Below, piece after piece: positions 3,941 through 41,487 of a stretch of 64,000 nucleotides of DNA. The stretch's first letter is position 1, and the number at the start of each line of letters is the position of its first letter. The position numbers and the translations under genes were made by a program. The notes beneath the pieces are model-generated. The model did not search any database. It saw only the letters and a list, made by a program, of their open reading frames with translations, and had not been told where the DNA came from. The stretch lies in the NCBI RefSeq assembly GCF_023498005.1, contig NZ_CP097289.1, positions 5,704,001-5,768,000 of the forward strand, read 5' to 3'. This stretch comes from Streptomyces durmitorensis (GTDB taxonomy: Bacteria > Actinomycetota > Actinomycetes > Streptomycetales > Streptomycetaceae).

Positions 3941-4932
3941 CAGCGGGGGACCGGGACGTGGGCGAGGATCGCGTTGATGACGGAGTCGGCCGTCACGCCC
4001 TCCATCTCGGCTTCCGGGCGGAGTTGCACGCGGTGGCGGAGGGTGGGCAGGGCGAGGGCCTTCACGTCGTCGGGGATGACGTAGTCGCGGCCCGTCAGCC
4101 AGGCCCAGGCGCGGGCCGTCGAGAGGAGCGCCGTAGCGCCTCGGGGGGAGGCGCCCAGCGTGAGGGACGGGGACTCGCGTGTGGCGCGGCAGATGTCGAC
4201 CACGTAGGCGGTGATCTCGGGGGAGATCGACGTCTTGGCGACCGCGGCGCGGGCTGCCTCCAGGTCGGCGGGGCCTGCCACGGGGCGGATGCCGGCGGCG
4301 TGGAGGTCGCGGGGGTTGAAGCCTTCCGCGTGGCGCGTGAGGACGTCGATCTCGTCCTGGCGTGAGGGGAGGGGGACGGTGAGTTTGAGGAGGAAGCGGT
4401 CCAGCTGGGCTTCGGGGAGGGGGTACGTGCCCTCGTATTCCACGGGGTTCTGCGTGGCCGCGACGAGGAAGGGCTCCGGGAGCGGGCGGGGGGTGCCGTC
4501 GACCGTGACCTGGCGTTCCTCCATCGCTTCGAGGAGGGAGGACTGGGTCTTGGGAGGGGTGCGGTTGATCTCGTCGGCGAGGAGGAGGTTGGTGAAGACC
4601 GGGCCCGGCTGGAAGGAGAACTCGGTGGTGCGGGCGTCGTAGATGAGGGAGCCCGTGACATCGCTCGGCATCAGGTCCGGGGTGAACTGGACGCGCTTGG
4701 TGTCGAGTTCGAGGGATGCGGCGAGGGCGCGGACGAGGAGGGTCTTCGCCACTCCGGGTACGCCTTCGAGCAGGACGTGGCCGCGGCAGAGGAGGGCCAC
4801 GACGAGCCCTGTCACCGCGGGGTCCTGACCGACCACGGCCTTGGAGATCTCGGTGCGCAGGGACTCCAGGGAGGAGCGGGCGCTGCCGGAGCTTCCGGAG
4901 TTCTCGGCGTTGTCAGTGGTCGGGTCCATCAT
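3940..4932 (-). CDS. MoxR-family AAA+ ATPase
   Basis: Protein of 330 residues, the usual length for MoxR. Walker A GVPGVAKT is at about 57-64, Walker B LLLADEIN at about 116-123, and the sensor-type motif VAATQNPVEYEGTYPLPEAQ follows. MoxR ATPases are chaperone-like AAA+ machines that work with VWA/DUF58 proteins. The ATG at 4932 is chosen because its ATGA overlaps the stop of the upstream DUF4350 gene and AGAGG lies 10 bases before it; the frame stays open far upstream but without a plausible start. The ATG at 4929 is the alternative. Confidence 0.94.
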   Translation of the reverse strand: MMDPTTDNAENSGSSGSARSSLESLRTEISKAVVGQDPAVTGLVVALLCRGHVLLEGVPGVAKTLLVRALAASLELDTKRVQFTPDLMPSDVTGSLIYDARTTEFSFQPGPVFTNLLLADEINRTPPKTQSSLLEAMEERQVTVDGTPRPLPEPFLVAATQNPVEYEGTYPLPEAQLDRFLLKLTVPLPSRQDEIDVLTRHAEGFNPRDLHAAGIRPVAGPADLEAARAAVAKTSISPEITAYVVDICRATRESPSLTLGASPRGATALLSTARAWAWLTGRDYVIPDDVKALALPTLRHRVQLRPEAEMEGVTADSVINAILAHVPVPR

Positions 4933-6533
4933 GAAGTACGTACCTCTTTTTCGAGGGCGTCGAGTTGGTCGGTGAGGTTGATGAGGGCTGCGTCGTTGCC
5001 TGGCGGCGGGCCGAAGAGGAGGGGGTGCAGGTCCTGGCCCGGGGTGCGGAGCCTGGCGGTCAGGGCGGGGAGCAGGGTCTCGGGCGCGTGCGCCTGGCCG
5101 GGGGATACGCCGATGAGGGGGGCGATGCGGGTGCGGGTGGTCGAGCGGAGGGCGGCGGCCGCGCGGTCGCGGGCGTTCGCCTTGCGGTAGAGGCGGGCTC
5201 GGCCTTCGACGGTTTCCGAGGCGCGGATGGCCACGGGGAGGCGTTCGGGGACCAGCGGGCCGAGGCGGCGGGCGCGCCACAGGGCGGCGAGTGCGGCGGC
5301 GATGGTGAGTTGGAGGGTGGCCCAGAGCCAGCCGTCGGGGATCAGGTCGAAGAAGCCGCGGTCGGCGGAGTCGTCGGTCGCCGCGTCGTCGGCGGGTGAG
5401 GGGAGGTACCAGACCAAGTGGGGGCGGGAGCCGAGGAGTTGCAGGGCCAGTGAGGCGTTGCCCTGCTCGTCGATGCGGTCGTTGAAGAGGATGTCGGGGG
5501 CGCCGAGTACGACGGTGTCGCCGGGGCCGTCGGCGGCCGGGAGCTGAAGGAGGCTGGGCAGGCCGTCGCTGAGGTAGCAGGACTCGGCGTCCGGGGCGAG
5601 GGTGTCGTAGCGGAGGCCGCCCACGTCGGCGGAGCCTGCGCGCTGGGCGGCGGGCAGGGAGCAGCGGGGGGAGAGCGTCGAGTCGATGCTGGGGGTGGCG
5701 TCCGCGGTGACCCCCGGGGCGAGGGTGCTGACCGAGGGGGTGCCGGGGGCGAGGAGGACGGTGCGGCCTCGGGAGTCCTCGGTGGCCGCGCGGAGGCGTG
5801 ACTGCTGGCGCTCGGTGAGCCGGTCGGGGGCGGCCACCAGGAGCGTGGTGTCCGGGTCTGCCGCGGACCTGGCCTCTTCGGAGGTGGTGACCACGCGGGT
5901 GGACACGCCGCGGTCGGCGAGGAGTTCGGCTACCGCACGGCTGCCGTAGGGGTCGGCCGAGCGGGGGTCGAGGCGGCCGTGCTGGGCACCGGAGCGGACG
6001 GTGGCGATGGCGACGGCGGCTGCCAGGAGGACGACCAGGGCGAGGAGGATGCCGCGGGTTCGGGTCCAGAGTTGGCGGGGGGTGGGGGCGGAGGAAGTGG
6101 GGGTGGGGGCGGGGCCGTCGGCGCTGGTGGGGTTGCCAGGGCGGCTGGGGCTCTTGGGGTCGTCGGGGGAGCTGTCGGGAACCCCGGGATTGCTGGGGGC
6201 GCCGGAAGTGCCGGGGCGGCTGGGAATCCTGGGGCTGCCAGAGCTGCCCGACCCGCCGGGGCTGTCGGGAATCCTGGAGTGGTCGGGAGTGCCTGGGGCG
6301 TCGGTGCCGTCCGAGCTGTCGGCAACGCCGGAGTCGTTAGGGGTGCCGGGGCTGTCGGGCCCGGGGGTGTTGGGACCGGCTGGGCCGTCGGTATTGGCCT
6401 CAGGGGGCGTTCCGCTCTCAGTTCCGAATCCGGCTCCGGGCCTGGTCCCGGGCTCGGCCCCGGACCAGCCCCTCGCTCCGGGCTTGGTTCCGGCTTTGGG
6501 GGAGGGGTTTTTAGGGTCCTGGGGGGCCGTCAA
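4929..6533 (-). CDS. DUF4350 domain membrane protein
   Basis: Protein of 534 residues if it starts at the TTG at 6533, which forms a TTGA overlap with the stop of the DUF4129 gene and has GAGGGAG just upstream. The first ~160 residues are low complexity, rich in G, P, S, T and D, and probably disordered. A membrane helix (LLALVVLLAAAVAIATV, ~168-184) comes next, then the extracytoplasmic DUF4350 region (DPYGSRAVAELLADRGV...), a second helix near residue 400 (WATLQLTIAAALAALW) and a cytoplasmic tail of about 115 residues. DUF4350 proteins sit in MoxR/DUF58/DUF4129 operons across actinobacteria; the biochemical role is unknown. A downstream GTG start would remove part of the disordered region. 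Confidence 0.82.
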   Translation of the reverse strand: MTAPQDPKNPSPKAGTKPGARGWSGAEPGTRPGAGFGTESGTPPEANTDGPAGPNTPGPDSPGTPNDSGVADSSDGTDAPGTPDHSRIPDSPGGSGSSGSPRIPSRPGTSGAPSNPGVPDSSPDDPKSPSRPGNPTSADGPAPTPTSSAPTPRQLWTRTRGILLALVVLLAAAVAIATVRSGAQHGRLDPRSADPYGSRAVAELLADRGVSTRVVTTSEEARSAADPDTTLLVAAPDRLTERQQSRLRAATEDSRGRTVLLAPGTPSVSTLAPGVTADATPSIDSTLSPRCSLPAAQRAGSADVGGLRYDTLAPDAESCYLSDGLPSLLQLPAADGPGDTVVLGAPDILFNDRIDEQGNASLALQLLGSRPHLVWYLPSPADDAATDDSADRGFFDLIPDGWLWATLQLTIAAALAALWRARRLGPLVPERLPVAIRASETVEGRARLYRKANARDRAAAALRSTTRTRIAPLIGVSPGQAHAPETLLPALTARLRTPGQDLHPLLFGPPPGNDAALINLTDQLDALEKEVRTS

Positions 6534-15905: not shown

Positions 15906-16220
15906 CTGGGAACTTGCATCGTTGCAGGTAGTGAGAGTGCCAATACACCTGAATGGAGGTATGCGGCGGTAGAGGGTGACGACATCCGTCCGGGCGAGAT
16001 ATGTTCGGTTGTGAGGAATGGCGGACGCCGTCCCTCGCATATCGGAATGCCGGCCGCTGGGTTTTCTGCAATCACCTGGGCCGGTCGGGGTGGAGATCTT
16101 GTTCGCGGGGGAGGAGGAGGTGGAAGTCACCGAGTCCGAGGCTCCGGGAGTCACCGGGGCCTGGTGCAAAAGGGAGATGCTCCGCCGCCGAAGCGGAGCG
16201 ATCCGGGAACGGAGTTCTGC
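15906..16220. other. hpf leader region
   Basis: 315 bases between comF and hpf. It is less GC-rich near 15910-16020, where promoters are likely, although I could not fix a clear -35/-10 pair. AGTCACCG occurs twice (around 16125 and 16149). A perfect 7-bp hairpin, 16179-16185 (GCTCCGC) against 16193-16199 (GCGGAGC), ends about 20 bases before the hpf start. Frames open across this gap look non-coding. Confidence 0.5.
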
Positions 16221-23755: not shown

Positions 23756-24253
23756 ATGCGCGTCTACGTTCCCCTGACCCTGAGCCGTCTCGCCGAGGCG
23801 TACAAGGCGGGCGAGCTGGGGCCGGCGCCGCTGACCGCCTATGCCGTGACGCCTGCTCTGCGTGAGTGGTACGTCTCCGATGACATCGAGGAGCTGGAGT
23901 ACGCCGCCCTGAACCGGGCCGCGCTTGCTTCGCTGCGGTTGATCGCCGGTGACGCGGGGGTGGCTCGGCGGCGGGTTGTGGTGGCTGCGGATGTGCCGGA
24001 TGCGGGGCTGGAGCCGGAGCTGGGGCCGGACGCGGCTCTTGGTGAGGTTCGGGTCGCCGGGGTGCTGGGGTTCAAGAAGGTTGCCGCCGTGCATGTGGAC
24101 GCGGAGGACGCGGAGGGGGATGTCGCCGCGGCGGTGGGGGTGCTGGGGGCTGCGGATCAGGGGGACGATGACGCGCGGTTCACTGTGGACGGGGTCGAGG
24201 ATCATGAGCTGCTGTGGTTCGCGACGCAGGAGATTCCTGGGTTGATCGGCTGA
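23756..24253 (+). CDS. conserved protein, DUF6912-like
   Basis: Protein of 165 residues beginning MRVYVPLTLSRLAEAYKAGE. No signal peptide or membrane segment. The sequence (YAVTPALREWYVSDDIEELEYAALNRAA) matches what I recall of a conserved actinobacterial family named DUF6912, encoded near secA; its function is unknown. The second half is acidic. It is followed directly by two copies of the palindromic intergenic element. Confidence 0.72.
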   Translation: MRVYVPLTLSRLAEAYKAGELGPAPLTAYAVTPALREWYVSDDIEELEYAALNRAALASLRLIAGDAGVARRRVVVAADVPDAGLEPELGPDAALGEVRVAGVLGFKKVAAVHVDAEDAEGDVAAAVGVLGAADQGDDDARFTVDGVEDHELLWFATQEIPGLIG

Positions 24254-24257
24254 GGGG

Positions 24258-24436
24258 TCCCTGCGGGGCTTGGGCGGGGTACGGAGCTGGTCCGCCTTGG
24301 GGGCGGGGCCGCGCCGGTATGTCCGTCCTCGCTATCGTCCGGTGGCCGCGGGGTTGCTTCGCTGCTGGAGTGCCGCGAGCCGTGCTCCGGGCGGACATAC
24401 CGGCACGTCCCCTCGGGTGCGCTGCCGGCTGCGGGG
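24258..24436 (+). repeat. palindromic intergenic element, copy A
   Basis: Core inverted arms GCCGGTATGTCCG (24313-24325) and CGGACATACCGGC (24392-24404) enclose a conserved block CTCGCTATCGTCCGGTGGCC, a variable ~30-base centre and CCGTGCTCCGGG. After the right arm comes conserved ACGTCCCCTCG. The left flank, from TCCCTGCGG through TTGGGGGCGGGG, is shared with copy C. It begins 5 bases after the upstream stop codon. Confidence 0.88.
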
Positions 24437-24605
24437 GCGTGCGTGCTGCGGGGCTGGTCTGTCTTTGGGGGCGGGGCCGTGCCGGTATGTCCGTCCTCGC
24501 TATCGTCCGGTGGCCGTGCGGTTTCTTCGGTGGGGGAGTGCTGGGAGCCGTGCTCCGGGCGGACATACCGGCACGTCCCCTCGGGTGCGCTGCCGGCTGC
24601 GGGTG
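24437..24605 (+). repeat. palindromic intergenic element, copy B
   Basis: In tandem with copy A, period 168 bases. The arms at 24481-24493 and 24560-24572 extend to a perfect 16-bp pair here (24478-24493 with 24560-24575). Same conserved inner blocks; the central ~30 bases differ from A and C. The outer limits are approximate. Confidence 0.88.
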
Positions 24606-24755
24606 CCTTCTTGCTTGGGTGTTCGGCGCACTGGATGCTGCGGGGTAATCGGGTGGGCGGGCGGGAAGTATCCGTCGCGGAGCGGCGGGCCTGTTTGTTG
24701 CGGGGCTGTGTTGCCGGGGGAGTGGGTTGTCGGTGGGGGCGGGTAGCGTTTCCGT

Positions 24756-25433
24756 ATGGGGAAGCTGCAGCGCGGGGCGCACATCGTGTGGGACTGGAAC
24801 GGGACACTCCTGCATGACATTCATGCGGTGATCGAGTCGACGAACGCTTCGTTCGCGGAGATCGGGCTGGATCCGATCACGCTCGAGCGGTATCGCGACC
24901 TGTACTGCGTGCCTGTCCCGCTCTTCTACGAGCGGCTCATGGGGCGGTTGCCCACGGACGCCGAGTGGGAAGTCATGGACGCCGTCTTCCACAAGCACTA
25001 CTGGGCTCGGGCCGAGGCCTGCGGCCTGGCCGACGGTGCCGCCGAGCTGCTCGCCGAGCGGCGGGCAGCCGGGCGTACGCAGTCGTTGCTGTCGCTCGCG
25101 CCGCACGAGCACCTCGTGCCGATCGTGCGGCGGCACGGGATCGAGGAGCACTTCGTGCGCATCGACGGGCGCATGGACGCCTCGCACGCGGGCAAGGCCG
25201 AGCGGATGGTGCGGCACCTTGCGGCTCTTGAGGGAGTCGCTGCCGCCGAGCGTGTCGTGGTCATCGGGGACGCCGTCGATGACGCGGTCGCGGCGGCGCA
25301 TGTGGGTGCGCAGGCCGTGCTCTACACCGGGGGGTCGCACAGCAGGGCCAGTCTGGAGGCCGTGGGGGTGCAGGTTCCCGTGGTCGACAGTCTTGCCGAG
25401 GCCGTGGAGGTGGCCGAGCGGCTGGCTGCTTAG
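24756..25433 (+). CDS. HAD-superfamily hydrolase
   Basis: Protein of 225 residues. Motif I reads VWDWNGTLLHD, with the nucleophile aspartate present but the usual second aspartate (DxD) replaced by asparagine (DWN). Motif II is near SLLSLAPHEH, and motif IV is VVVIGDAVDDAVAA. It resembles phosphoglycolate-phosphatase-like members; the substrate is unknown. The Asn may lower phosphatase activity or change chemistry, though DWNGT variants recur in the superfamily. The ATG at 24756 has no strong ribosome site. It ends about 75 bases before the next gene on the same strand. Confidence 0.87.
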   Translation: MGKLQRGAHIVWDWNGTLLHDIHAVIESTNASFAEIGLDPITLERYRDLYCVPVPLFYERLMGRLPTDAEWEVMDAVFHKHYWARAEACGLADGAAELLAERRAAGRTQSLLSLAPHEHLVPIVRRHGIEEHFVRIDGRMDASHAGKAERMVRHLAALEGVAAAERVVVIGDAVDDAVAAAHVGAQAVLYTGGSHSRASLEAVGVQVPVVDSLAEAVEVAERLAA

Positions 25434-41092: not shown

Positions 41093-41487
41093 GGGGTCAA
41101 GTGTGCGGGATCCCTGCGGTGGGCTTGGGCTTGGGCTTGGGCGGGGGTGCGGGGTGCGGGGGTGCGGGGTTGGTCCGTCTTGGGGGCGGGGCCGCGCCGG
41201 TATGTCCGTCCTCGCTATCGTCCGGTGGCCGCGATTGCTGCTTCGGTGCTGGAGTGCGGGGAACCGTGCTCCGGGCGGACATACCGGCACGTCCCCTCGC
41301 GAGCGTTCCCGGCTGCGACGCGTACGGTCCCCGCGCTGGGCCGGTCGAGTCCGGCGGCGCCGCCTGAACATCGCTGAGTGCTCCCTTTCGCCCGACCGCC
41401 GCTGCACGCGGGCGGTGACCCGCCCGCCGCCGTGGCCGTCGCGCTGCGCATCTGGGGGCATCGCCCAGTTGATCCGCTCGCTCGGGC
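41093..41487. other. intergenic region between small membrane protein and galE
   Basis: 395 bases. The first ~240 are repeat copy C and its simple-sequence flank. The remaining ~155 bases look non-coding and include GCGGGC/GCCCGC around 41408-41426, which may form a weak terminator for galE. Confidence 0.5.
41111..41330 (+). repeat. palindromic intergenic element, copy C
   Basis: Third copy, same orientation, 17 kb from A and B. Arms GCCGGTATGTCCG (41196-41208) and CGGACATACCGGC (41276-41288). The left flank TCCCTGCGG is followed by an expanded GGGCTTGGGCTTGGGCTTGG and a GGGTGCG repeat before the shared TTGGGGGCGGGG. The spacing between arms matches A and B to within one base. Confidence 0.88.

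Follow-up and report, generated by a model that had tools for sequence, protein, structure and literature searches.

The window analysed here is a 64-kb stretch (C1:5704001-5768000) of a Streptomyces genome of 9.86 Mb, and it carries three copies of a palindromic element that we consider, with fair probability, to belong to a non-coding, non-autonomous family of intergenic hairpin repeats of Streptomyces, which is REP/BIME-like, kept folded and homogenised by conversion between its copies. The folded single strand is most likely the functional form of the element. Rarely does a bacterial repeat combine dozens of dispersed copies in each genome with orthologous sites in related species and with stem pairs that change on both sides. 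As its copies seem to be rewritten from one another, the family lends itself to studying the concerted evolution of bacterial repeats.

The hairpin in the window and in its genome

Copies A (24298..24414, covering model positions 1-117 of the core) and B (24466..24582) stand in tandem, B following A after 168 nt, and copy C occupies 41181..41298. All three lie on the plus strand and are placed by the R2 model at 108.9, 109.2 and 108.2 bits, respectively, with E-values of 3e-19 to 5e-19; this model was built from 43 matches, several of which belong to the window's own genome and one of which is the palindromic copy L133 in antisense. The paired plus-strand arms are 24 nt long and 88-92% complementary, and are found at 24305-24328 / 24389-24412 in A, at 24473-24496 / 24557-24580 in B and at 41188-41211 / 41273-41296 in C. 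Direct alignment of the 151-nt copies 24297-24447 and 24465-24615 gave 91% identity at a spacing of 168, with the third copy near 41180-41300, so that the tandem units of about 150 bases with a 168-base period and a third copy 17 kb away, as described in the earlier note, are borne out by alignment and R2 placement alike. The 13-base arm GCCGGTATGTCCG occurs six times exactly in the window, forming three inverted pairs, and when up to two mismatches are allowed it is matched 10 times as opposed to 3.2 expected, a number reached in none of 100 shuffles. The distance of about 92 bases given earlier for these arms is the full extent of the inverted pair, arms included (24313-24404), while the gap between the 13-base arms is 66-67 bases.

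Left of the tandem copies, an ORF of 165 codons ends at 24253, and to their right another, HAD-hydrolase-like by eye, starts at 24756. The position directly after a stop codon, as first described, is correct as to the stop at 24253 upstream, but copy A starts about 45 nt past it. Copy C is flanked by two minus-strand frames, one small and membrane-protein-like, the other a galE-like ORF, both named by eye. The repeated unit extends beyond the core: the 51-nt spacer between A and B (24415..24465, plus strand) consists of the right flank of A and the left flank of B, and by-eye comparison of 42 left and 42 right flanks delimits a conserved left flank of about 20-25 nt (24272..24297, plus strand) and a conserved right flank of about 30 nt (24583..24612, plus strand), the outer limits of both being approximate. 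As previously stated, no open frame is shared; by eye no frame is kept over the family, and the arms themselves differ between species. A coding reading was rejected, as the MSVLAIVRW frame of the own-genome copies vanishes once the arms change. Elsewhere in the window, a raiA-hairpin RNA (RF03059) was found at 16128-16175 with 74.8 bits, and positions 1-2537 are the end of an rRNA operon (LSU and 5S).

In the genome of the window, blastn gave at least 66 matches, counted from the best 40 of 125 candidates scored, and 62 matches were obtained with a 34-base pattern that tolerated up to 3 mismatches, its reversed control giving none. Copies with both arms, 88-90 nt apart between the ends of the arm pattern, numbered 61 in 39 stretches around matches. 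These form 42 clusters, namely 31 single copies and 11 tandem arrays of 2-4 copies, a set that leaves out at least two further places matched by the model (C1:5140347 and C1:3648636). The search of the arm across the full genome, which had been suggested earlier, thus raised the three copies to 61 at 42 places; moreover, the copies are dispersed over genome and genus, which speaks against the possibility, allowed for in the same note, that the similarity is confined to local duplication. The 19 array spacers of this genome resemble one another and measure 49-51 nt, giving a unit of about 167 nt, and two copies of S. lasiicapitis are likewise 167 apart. Intergenic positions were assigned to 40 of the 42 places by a home-made gene caller, which flagged the other two as inside a gene call.

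Paired arms and the transcript reading

The core of about 117 nt forms a long imperfect stem, which is set in the conserved frame GTGGGKCGGGGCCG-arm-TCCGTCCTCG ... CTGCGGGCGGA-arm'-CACGTCCCCTY. The arms within this frame vary, the variants including GCCGGTATG, GGCGGTATG, GGGGGTATG, GCCGGGGGTG, GCCGGAGCA, GCCGGTACA, GGGGGGATA and CACGGGGCATG, and the opposite arm follows. In a comparison of 36 rows with one or two copies per genome, left and right arm positions pair in 340 of 375 cases, while 2000 re-pairing shuffles gave a mean of 67.9% and a maximum of 76.1%. In the model-fitted alignment, both sides have changed in 10 of 22 pairs, with 56 double-changed cells as opposed to 11.2 in shuffles; this number was equalled by none of 500 shuffles, and slid structures gave 0-6 cells. 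This alignment leans to its own structure, but the arm test (340 of 375) is independent of it. Individual copies may also carry a paired change, such as L243 in the genome G294, whose change is absent from its siblings. The compensatory changes to be sought with a covariance model were therefore found, and the folded-structure half of the original proposal has gained support from this genus-wide covariation of the arms.

Hairpin-templated correction could imitate part of the covariation. However, one stem position is a C.T mismatch in 30 of 36 rows, and its retention speaks against such correction as the full explanation. A U.G beside the arm has been retained in 37 of 43 cases. Among the stem mismatches counted, C.A/A.C amount to 32 and G.T/T.G to 4, as if G.U of the other strand were tolerated, although few independent events underlie these counts and one T.G is invariant; a strand preference of wobble pairs was discarded for the same small number of independent events.

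A repeat family may show covariation without being an RNA gene, and this caution applies to the reading of the element as a structured 3'-UTR or small RNA whose hairpin would protect or terminate transcripts, which we regard as improbable. Stable palindromic 3'-UTR fragments are a subject of PMC4681348, as far as its consulted sections go. Besides the covariation and the mismatch excess just mentioned, predicted folds that are stable on both strands (z of -1.8 to -4.1 on the plus and -3.1 to -4.2 on the minus strand) would fit a transcript. So would the gene context in other genomes, where 54 of 58 loci could be classed, some species giving several, as codirectional (co+ 19, co- 14), convergent (17) or divergent (4): divergent sites are rarer than convergent ones, and the left neighbour points to the element in 36 of 54 loci. 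In the window's genome, on the other hand, the element shows no marked preference among gene contexts (co+ 13, co- 12, convergent 10 and divergent 7, by the home-made gene caller), and a terminator or 3'-UTR reading was set aside on this account. In addition, no U-run follows the stem by eye, a fixed internal promoter is not expected, since the arms change, and no Rfam family matches the element, either in the own copies or at five loci with other variants.

Copies at shared sites and the G-quadruplex neighbour

The 42 clusters were sought in the related genome G327, where both flanks of 34 could be located but only one flank of the other 8; the flanks of the two genomes are 77-90% identical, and two of the 34 mapped sites have inconsistent gap coordinates. 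A hairpin is present at 11 of these 34 sites and absent at 23, and the R2 model finds the same 11. The A/B locus has matching flanks in 17 of 18 relatives searched, among which R2 finds one hairpin in G327 and two whole copies, with pieces seen by eye, in G210, and none in the other 15. In the genomes G140 and G294, with 17 stretches, 1 of 12 comparable sites is common to both, with about 91% identity at that site. Of 15 further loci, 11 have a counterpart (5 in G294 and 6 in G140), and in none of these 11 was a hairpin match found at E <= 0.1, two pairs among them being rearranged (L230/L245) or aligned on one side only (L241/L253). The mobile or REP-like half of the earlier proposal has gained support from the 61 copies at 42 places and from such presence and absence differences between related genomes, and new hairpin copies most likely arise rarely.

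These differences, together with the 24-nt inverted arms, the unit of 150-170 bp and the dispersal of the copies, would also suit a MITE, that is, a deletion derivative of a DDE-type insertion sequence whose arms are transposase-binding ends and which is moved in trans. We think this origin unlikely, as the arms vary between species while the blocks inside and outside them stay, the reverse of what is expected for transposase-bound ends, and as conserved sequence runs about 20-30 nt outside the arms, so that the inverted repeats are not at the very ends. Furthermore, plasmids and phages gave no match with two query variants. At the empty sites in G327, G140 and G294, the flanks are too diverged to read a target duplication or the exact border. 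An inverted pair of copies about 1.2 kb apart (L069) encloses, by eye, no transposase-like ORF.

At the 11 sites shared with G327, the orientation of the hairpin agrees in all 11, and they are therefore taken as old shared sites. The mean identity of the orthologues is nevertheless 0.819, compared with a mean of 0.80-0.83 for pairs between the two genomes in general, whereas copies within a genome are 0.93 (the 11 of G327) and 0.89 (400 sampled pairs of the window's genome) identical. As judged by these comparisons, the copies at shared sites resemble the family of their own genome and not their orthologue, a pattern that shows concerted evolution. One of the 11 is an exception: no own copy is closer to C1:4491790 than its orthologue, and this copy has an A-T pair, present in all 11 copies of G327, where the other 60 own copies have C-G. 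When the tree of these copies is rooted on one G327 copy, all 61 copies of the own genome group together to the exclusion of G327 copies, with a support of 0.865.

Alleles are only weakly linked among the own copies. All four gametes were observed in 22 of 28 pairs of transversion columns when 36 copies, one per stretch, were compared, and with 54 copies the figure was 28 of 36 pairs. Part of this unlinking could also be the product of recurrent mutation. Some linkage remains, because the mean r2 within the family over the 117 bases is 0.054 and exceeds that of shuffled columns (0.030, sd 0.003, maximum 0.039).

A folded and converting repeat, our preferred reading, would work as follows. The single-stranded element would fold into a hairpin, most simply on the lagging-strand template during replication, and the cell machinery would act on the hairpin and not on the sequence of its arms, which is why paired changes of the arms could survive. 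Copies would be rewritten from one another by short tracts of gene conversion, and new arm pairs may spread in this way. Two further observations speak for this reading: in other genomes, convergent sites outnumber divergent ones (17 against 4), and most of the rows listed are oriented away from the chromosome centre, as detailed below. The nearly even gene context of the own genome tells against it.

A second repeat of G-quadruplex (G4) type, GCGGGGTAATCGGGTGGGCGGGCGGGAA, is found on the plus strand at 24640..24667, 58 nt after copy B, and its G4 core at 24650-24665 is the sole strict C-led G4 motif in the window. Within 700 nt downstream of the hairpin and on the same strand, the strict motif CGGGHGGGHGGGHGGG is present at 29 of the 42 clusters of this genome, as opposed to 0 of 42 each for downstream on the opposite strand, upstream on the same and upstream on the opposite strand; a looser consensus of the repeat gave 30, 1, 0 and 0, respectively. 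In the remainder of these stretches, the background rate per strand and 700 nt is 0.006 for the motif and 0.010 for the repeat. The polarity persists when the distance is set between 100 and 2000 nt; for the mirrored motif the count was 1. By eye, the motif is part of this second repeat, which is dispersed in the genome in units of about 50 nt and also occurs away from hairpins (10 matches in 349 kb). Since hairpin and G4 are separated by anything between 25 and about 600 nt, they do not form a single rigid element, and copy C has no strict motif downstream.

In other genomes, a downstream G4 on the same strand was found at 5 of 11 places in G327 and at 6 of 14 in G140 and G294, with 2 on the opposite strand. 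Further sets gave 3 of 40 (the three from G327, G140 and G210) and 0 of 18 in named species; the 83 rows of these counts are 80 distinct places, two matches being counted twice and L130, L060 and L212 being left out. By these counts, the G4 neighbour is, among the genomes compared, a feature of the own clade. Hairpin-free sites of G327 have a same-strand G4 at 6 of 14 places whose own-genome site has one, in a test that allowed one mismatch, used 32 of the 34 sites and also matched the opposite strand in 4 of the 6.

Within the own clade, the same-strand downstream G4 may stall replication forks and start exchange, or provide a landing site. A stronger version, to which we assign a rather low probability, is that hairpin and G4 repeat are one recombination unit, in which the same-strand G4 stalls replication and triggers continuous short-tract conversion among the dispersed hairpins. 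If this were true, the copies would be one freely recombining population, with compensatory arm pairs sweeping the genome, and the hairpin would be the self-propagating cargo of a G4-driven conversion, a genome-wide analogue of pilin gene conversion on non-coding DNA.

Distribution in Streptomyces and relation to known systems

Outside the window's genome, a search for exact 12-base arms 55-85 apart, which may leave out records of that genome, gave 19 stretches in 8 named Streptomyces species, in which the termini agree and the centres differ. A first covariance model built from 42 copies matched 91 of 392 sampled genus genomes, own included, at E <= 1e-3; as the best 9 candidates per genome were scored, diverged copies may be missed. 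The search among other Streptomyces that the earlier note had proposed has thus yielded relatives, and the matches by arm pattern and covariance model rule out a repeat of one genome only. Sequence similarity as such reaches less far: blastn of copy A over 120 relatives gave, besides own copies, partial matches only (best 7 candidates per genome), and a 27-base interior pattern with up to 3 mismatches matched only the own genome among 392 genus genomes, because the interior is species-specific. Over the class, R2 matched 12 of 394 genomes, of which 11 belong to the same genus, own included, and the sole match outside it, in G599 of another genus, is weak (42 bits). As far as sampled, the hairpin family therefore appears confined to Streptomyces.

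Several observations were made beside these matches. The stretch of G599 (L213) is a palindrome with TCCGTCCTCG at the same place of the stem, either by chance or as a distant relative. A 31-kb contig of IMG/VR (L255:7741-7861) contains one hairpin copy of 77.8 bits, found with the one pattern tried; the copy may belong to host DNA next to a prophage. Another, related repeat, whose sequence GTGCCGGTGTGTTCGTCTTCGCCGTTGGTGGGG is like the left arm, adjoins true copies in L094 (about 4854-4960) and L079 (about 5003, counted on the minus strand), occurring twice in L094 with a spacing of 104 nt, and a (CTGT)n microsatellite of 16 units abuts the hairpin copy in L093, just left of it on the element's own strand.

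The distribution also bears on a very unlikely alternative, in which the element would be a structural binding site for a protein such as gyrase, a nucleoid or a condensation factor, multiplied over the chromosome. The conserved frame around varying arms would agree with it, as would the spread of the scored copies (best 40 of 125 candidates) over 1.2-8.7 Mb of the 9.7-Mb chromosome and an orientation bias away from the chromosome centre, which here stands in for oriC. Among the matches listed, 103 of 159 rows from 19 genomes point away from the centre (p 0.0002), related genomes sharing sites so that rows are not independent, chromosome sizes being rounded and at least one genome having two contigs. 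Without the own genome, the figure is 76 of 117 among the matches listed; beyond 1 Mb from the centre it is 65 of 105 listed rows (p 0.02), the own genome giving 12 of 24, and G140 and G165 oppose the bias with 3 of 10 each among the matches listed. Against a site of this kind, copies were detected in only the 91 of 392 genus genomes given above, diverged ones possibly escaping, and the number of matches per genome varies from 6 to 74 among 16 carriers, most sites not being common between genomes. The match numbers are upper figures, since antisense shadows of the palindrome, which were noted in R2 matches elsewhere, may be counted in them.

The folded and converting repeat family can be compared with several known systems. 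ERIC, Correia (NEMIS) and RUP elements are intergenic palindromic repeats of 100-150 nt with inverted arms, and have recognisable fixed sequences over their hosts. The present family resembles them in size, intergenic position and inverted arms; here, however, it is structure and frame that persist from species to species, whereas arms and centre are exchanged for others. The REP/RAYT system is defined by a short hairpin (about 20-40 nt) with GTAG at its foot. No GTAG was seen by eye at the foot of the hairpin in our alignments, with their core of about 117 nt and 24-nt arms, and within 40 nt left of the core it occurs in 13 of 83 rows. The Y1 transposase (PF01797) gave 0 matches at E <= 0.001 in the own genome (best 3 candidates scored), in a search that matches in 5 of 14 control genomes, and no mobilising gene was found there by this search, which covered Y1 only. 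By the tests made, the family is not a member of the REP/RAYT system, although it is REP/BIME-like in working. The earlier formula of a folded structure or a MITE- or REP-like element is thus upheld as to fold and dispersal, but not as a strict MITE or, no Y1 having been found in the genome, as classical REP/RAYT.

Being multi-copy, intergenic, palindromic and partly tandem, the family does answer to a broad description of BIMEs. Like the REP/BIME repeats of enterobacteria and pseudomonads with their RAYT, it consists of dispersed intergenic hairpins in tandem or mosaic arrays, which are non-coding and have species-specific variants (in part PMC2267715); it differs in its core of about 117 nt instead of short hairpins, in a genome in which the search found no Y1, in arms that co-vary over the genus and in the G4 partner of its clade. 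MIRU and the stem-loop sequence families are similar as multi-copy structured intergenic repeats (Cozzuto 2008, PMC2267715). A table in that stem-loop survey names Corynebacterium and Mycobacterium among high-GC genomes, and Streptomyces occurs 0 times in its main text; in the text sections of a further survey (PMC1590033) Streptomyces occurs once, in a reference, and those of a paper on Streptomyces ncRNAs (PMC3765725) lack the words repeat, palindrom and copies. Among the titles and abstract openings listed, a scope that excludes subscription papers, no description of such a Streptomyces family was found.

The closest parallel for the proposed exchange is pilE of Neisseria gonorrhoeae, where, according to the sections consulted of PMC3547852, a G4 with an associated small RNA is linked to gene conversion and has been tested genetically. 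In both cases a G4 motif adjoins DNA that undergoes, or here would undergo, gene conversion, and by this analogy we infer that the link may apply to the Streptomyces hairpins. In contrast to pilE, which is one expression locus, the hairpins are present in many dispersed copies, are known from sequence alone and in other species stand without a G4. Such a family makes it possible to test directly, in harmless soil bacteria, how non-coding repeats undergo concerted evolution and what part hairpin and G4 play in starting it.
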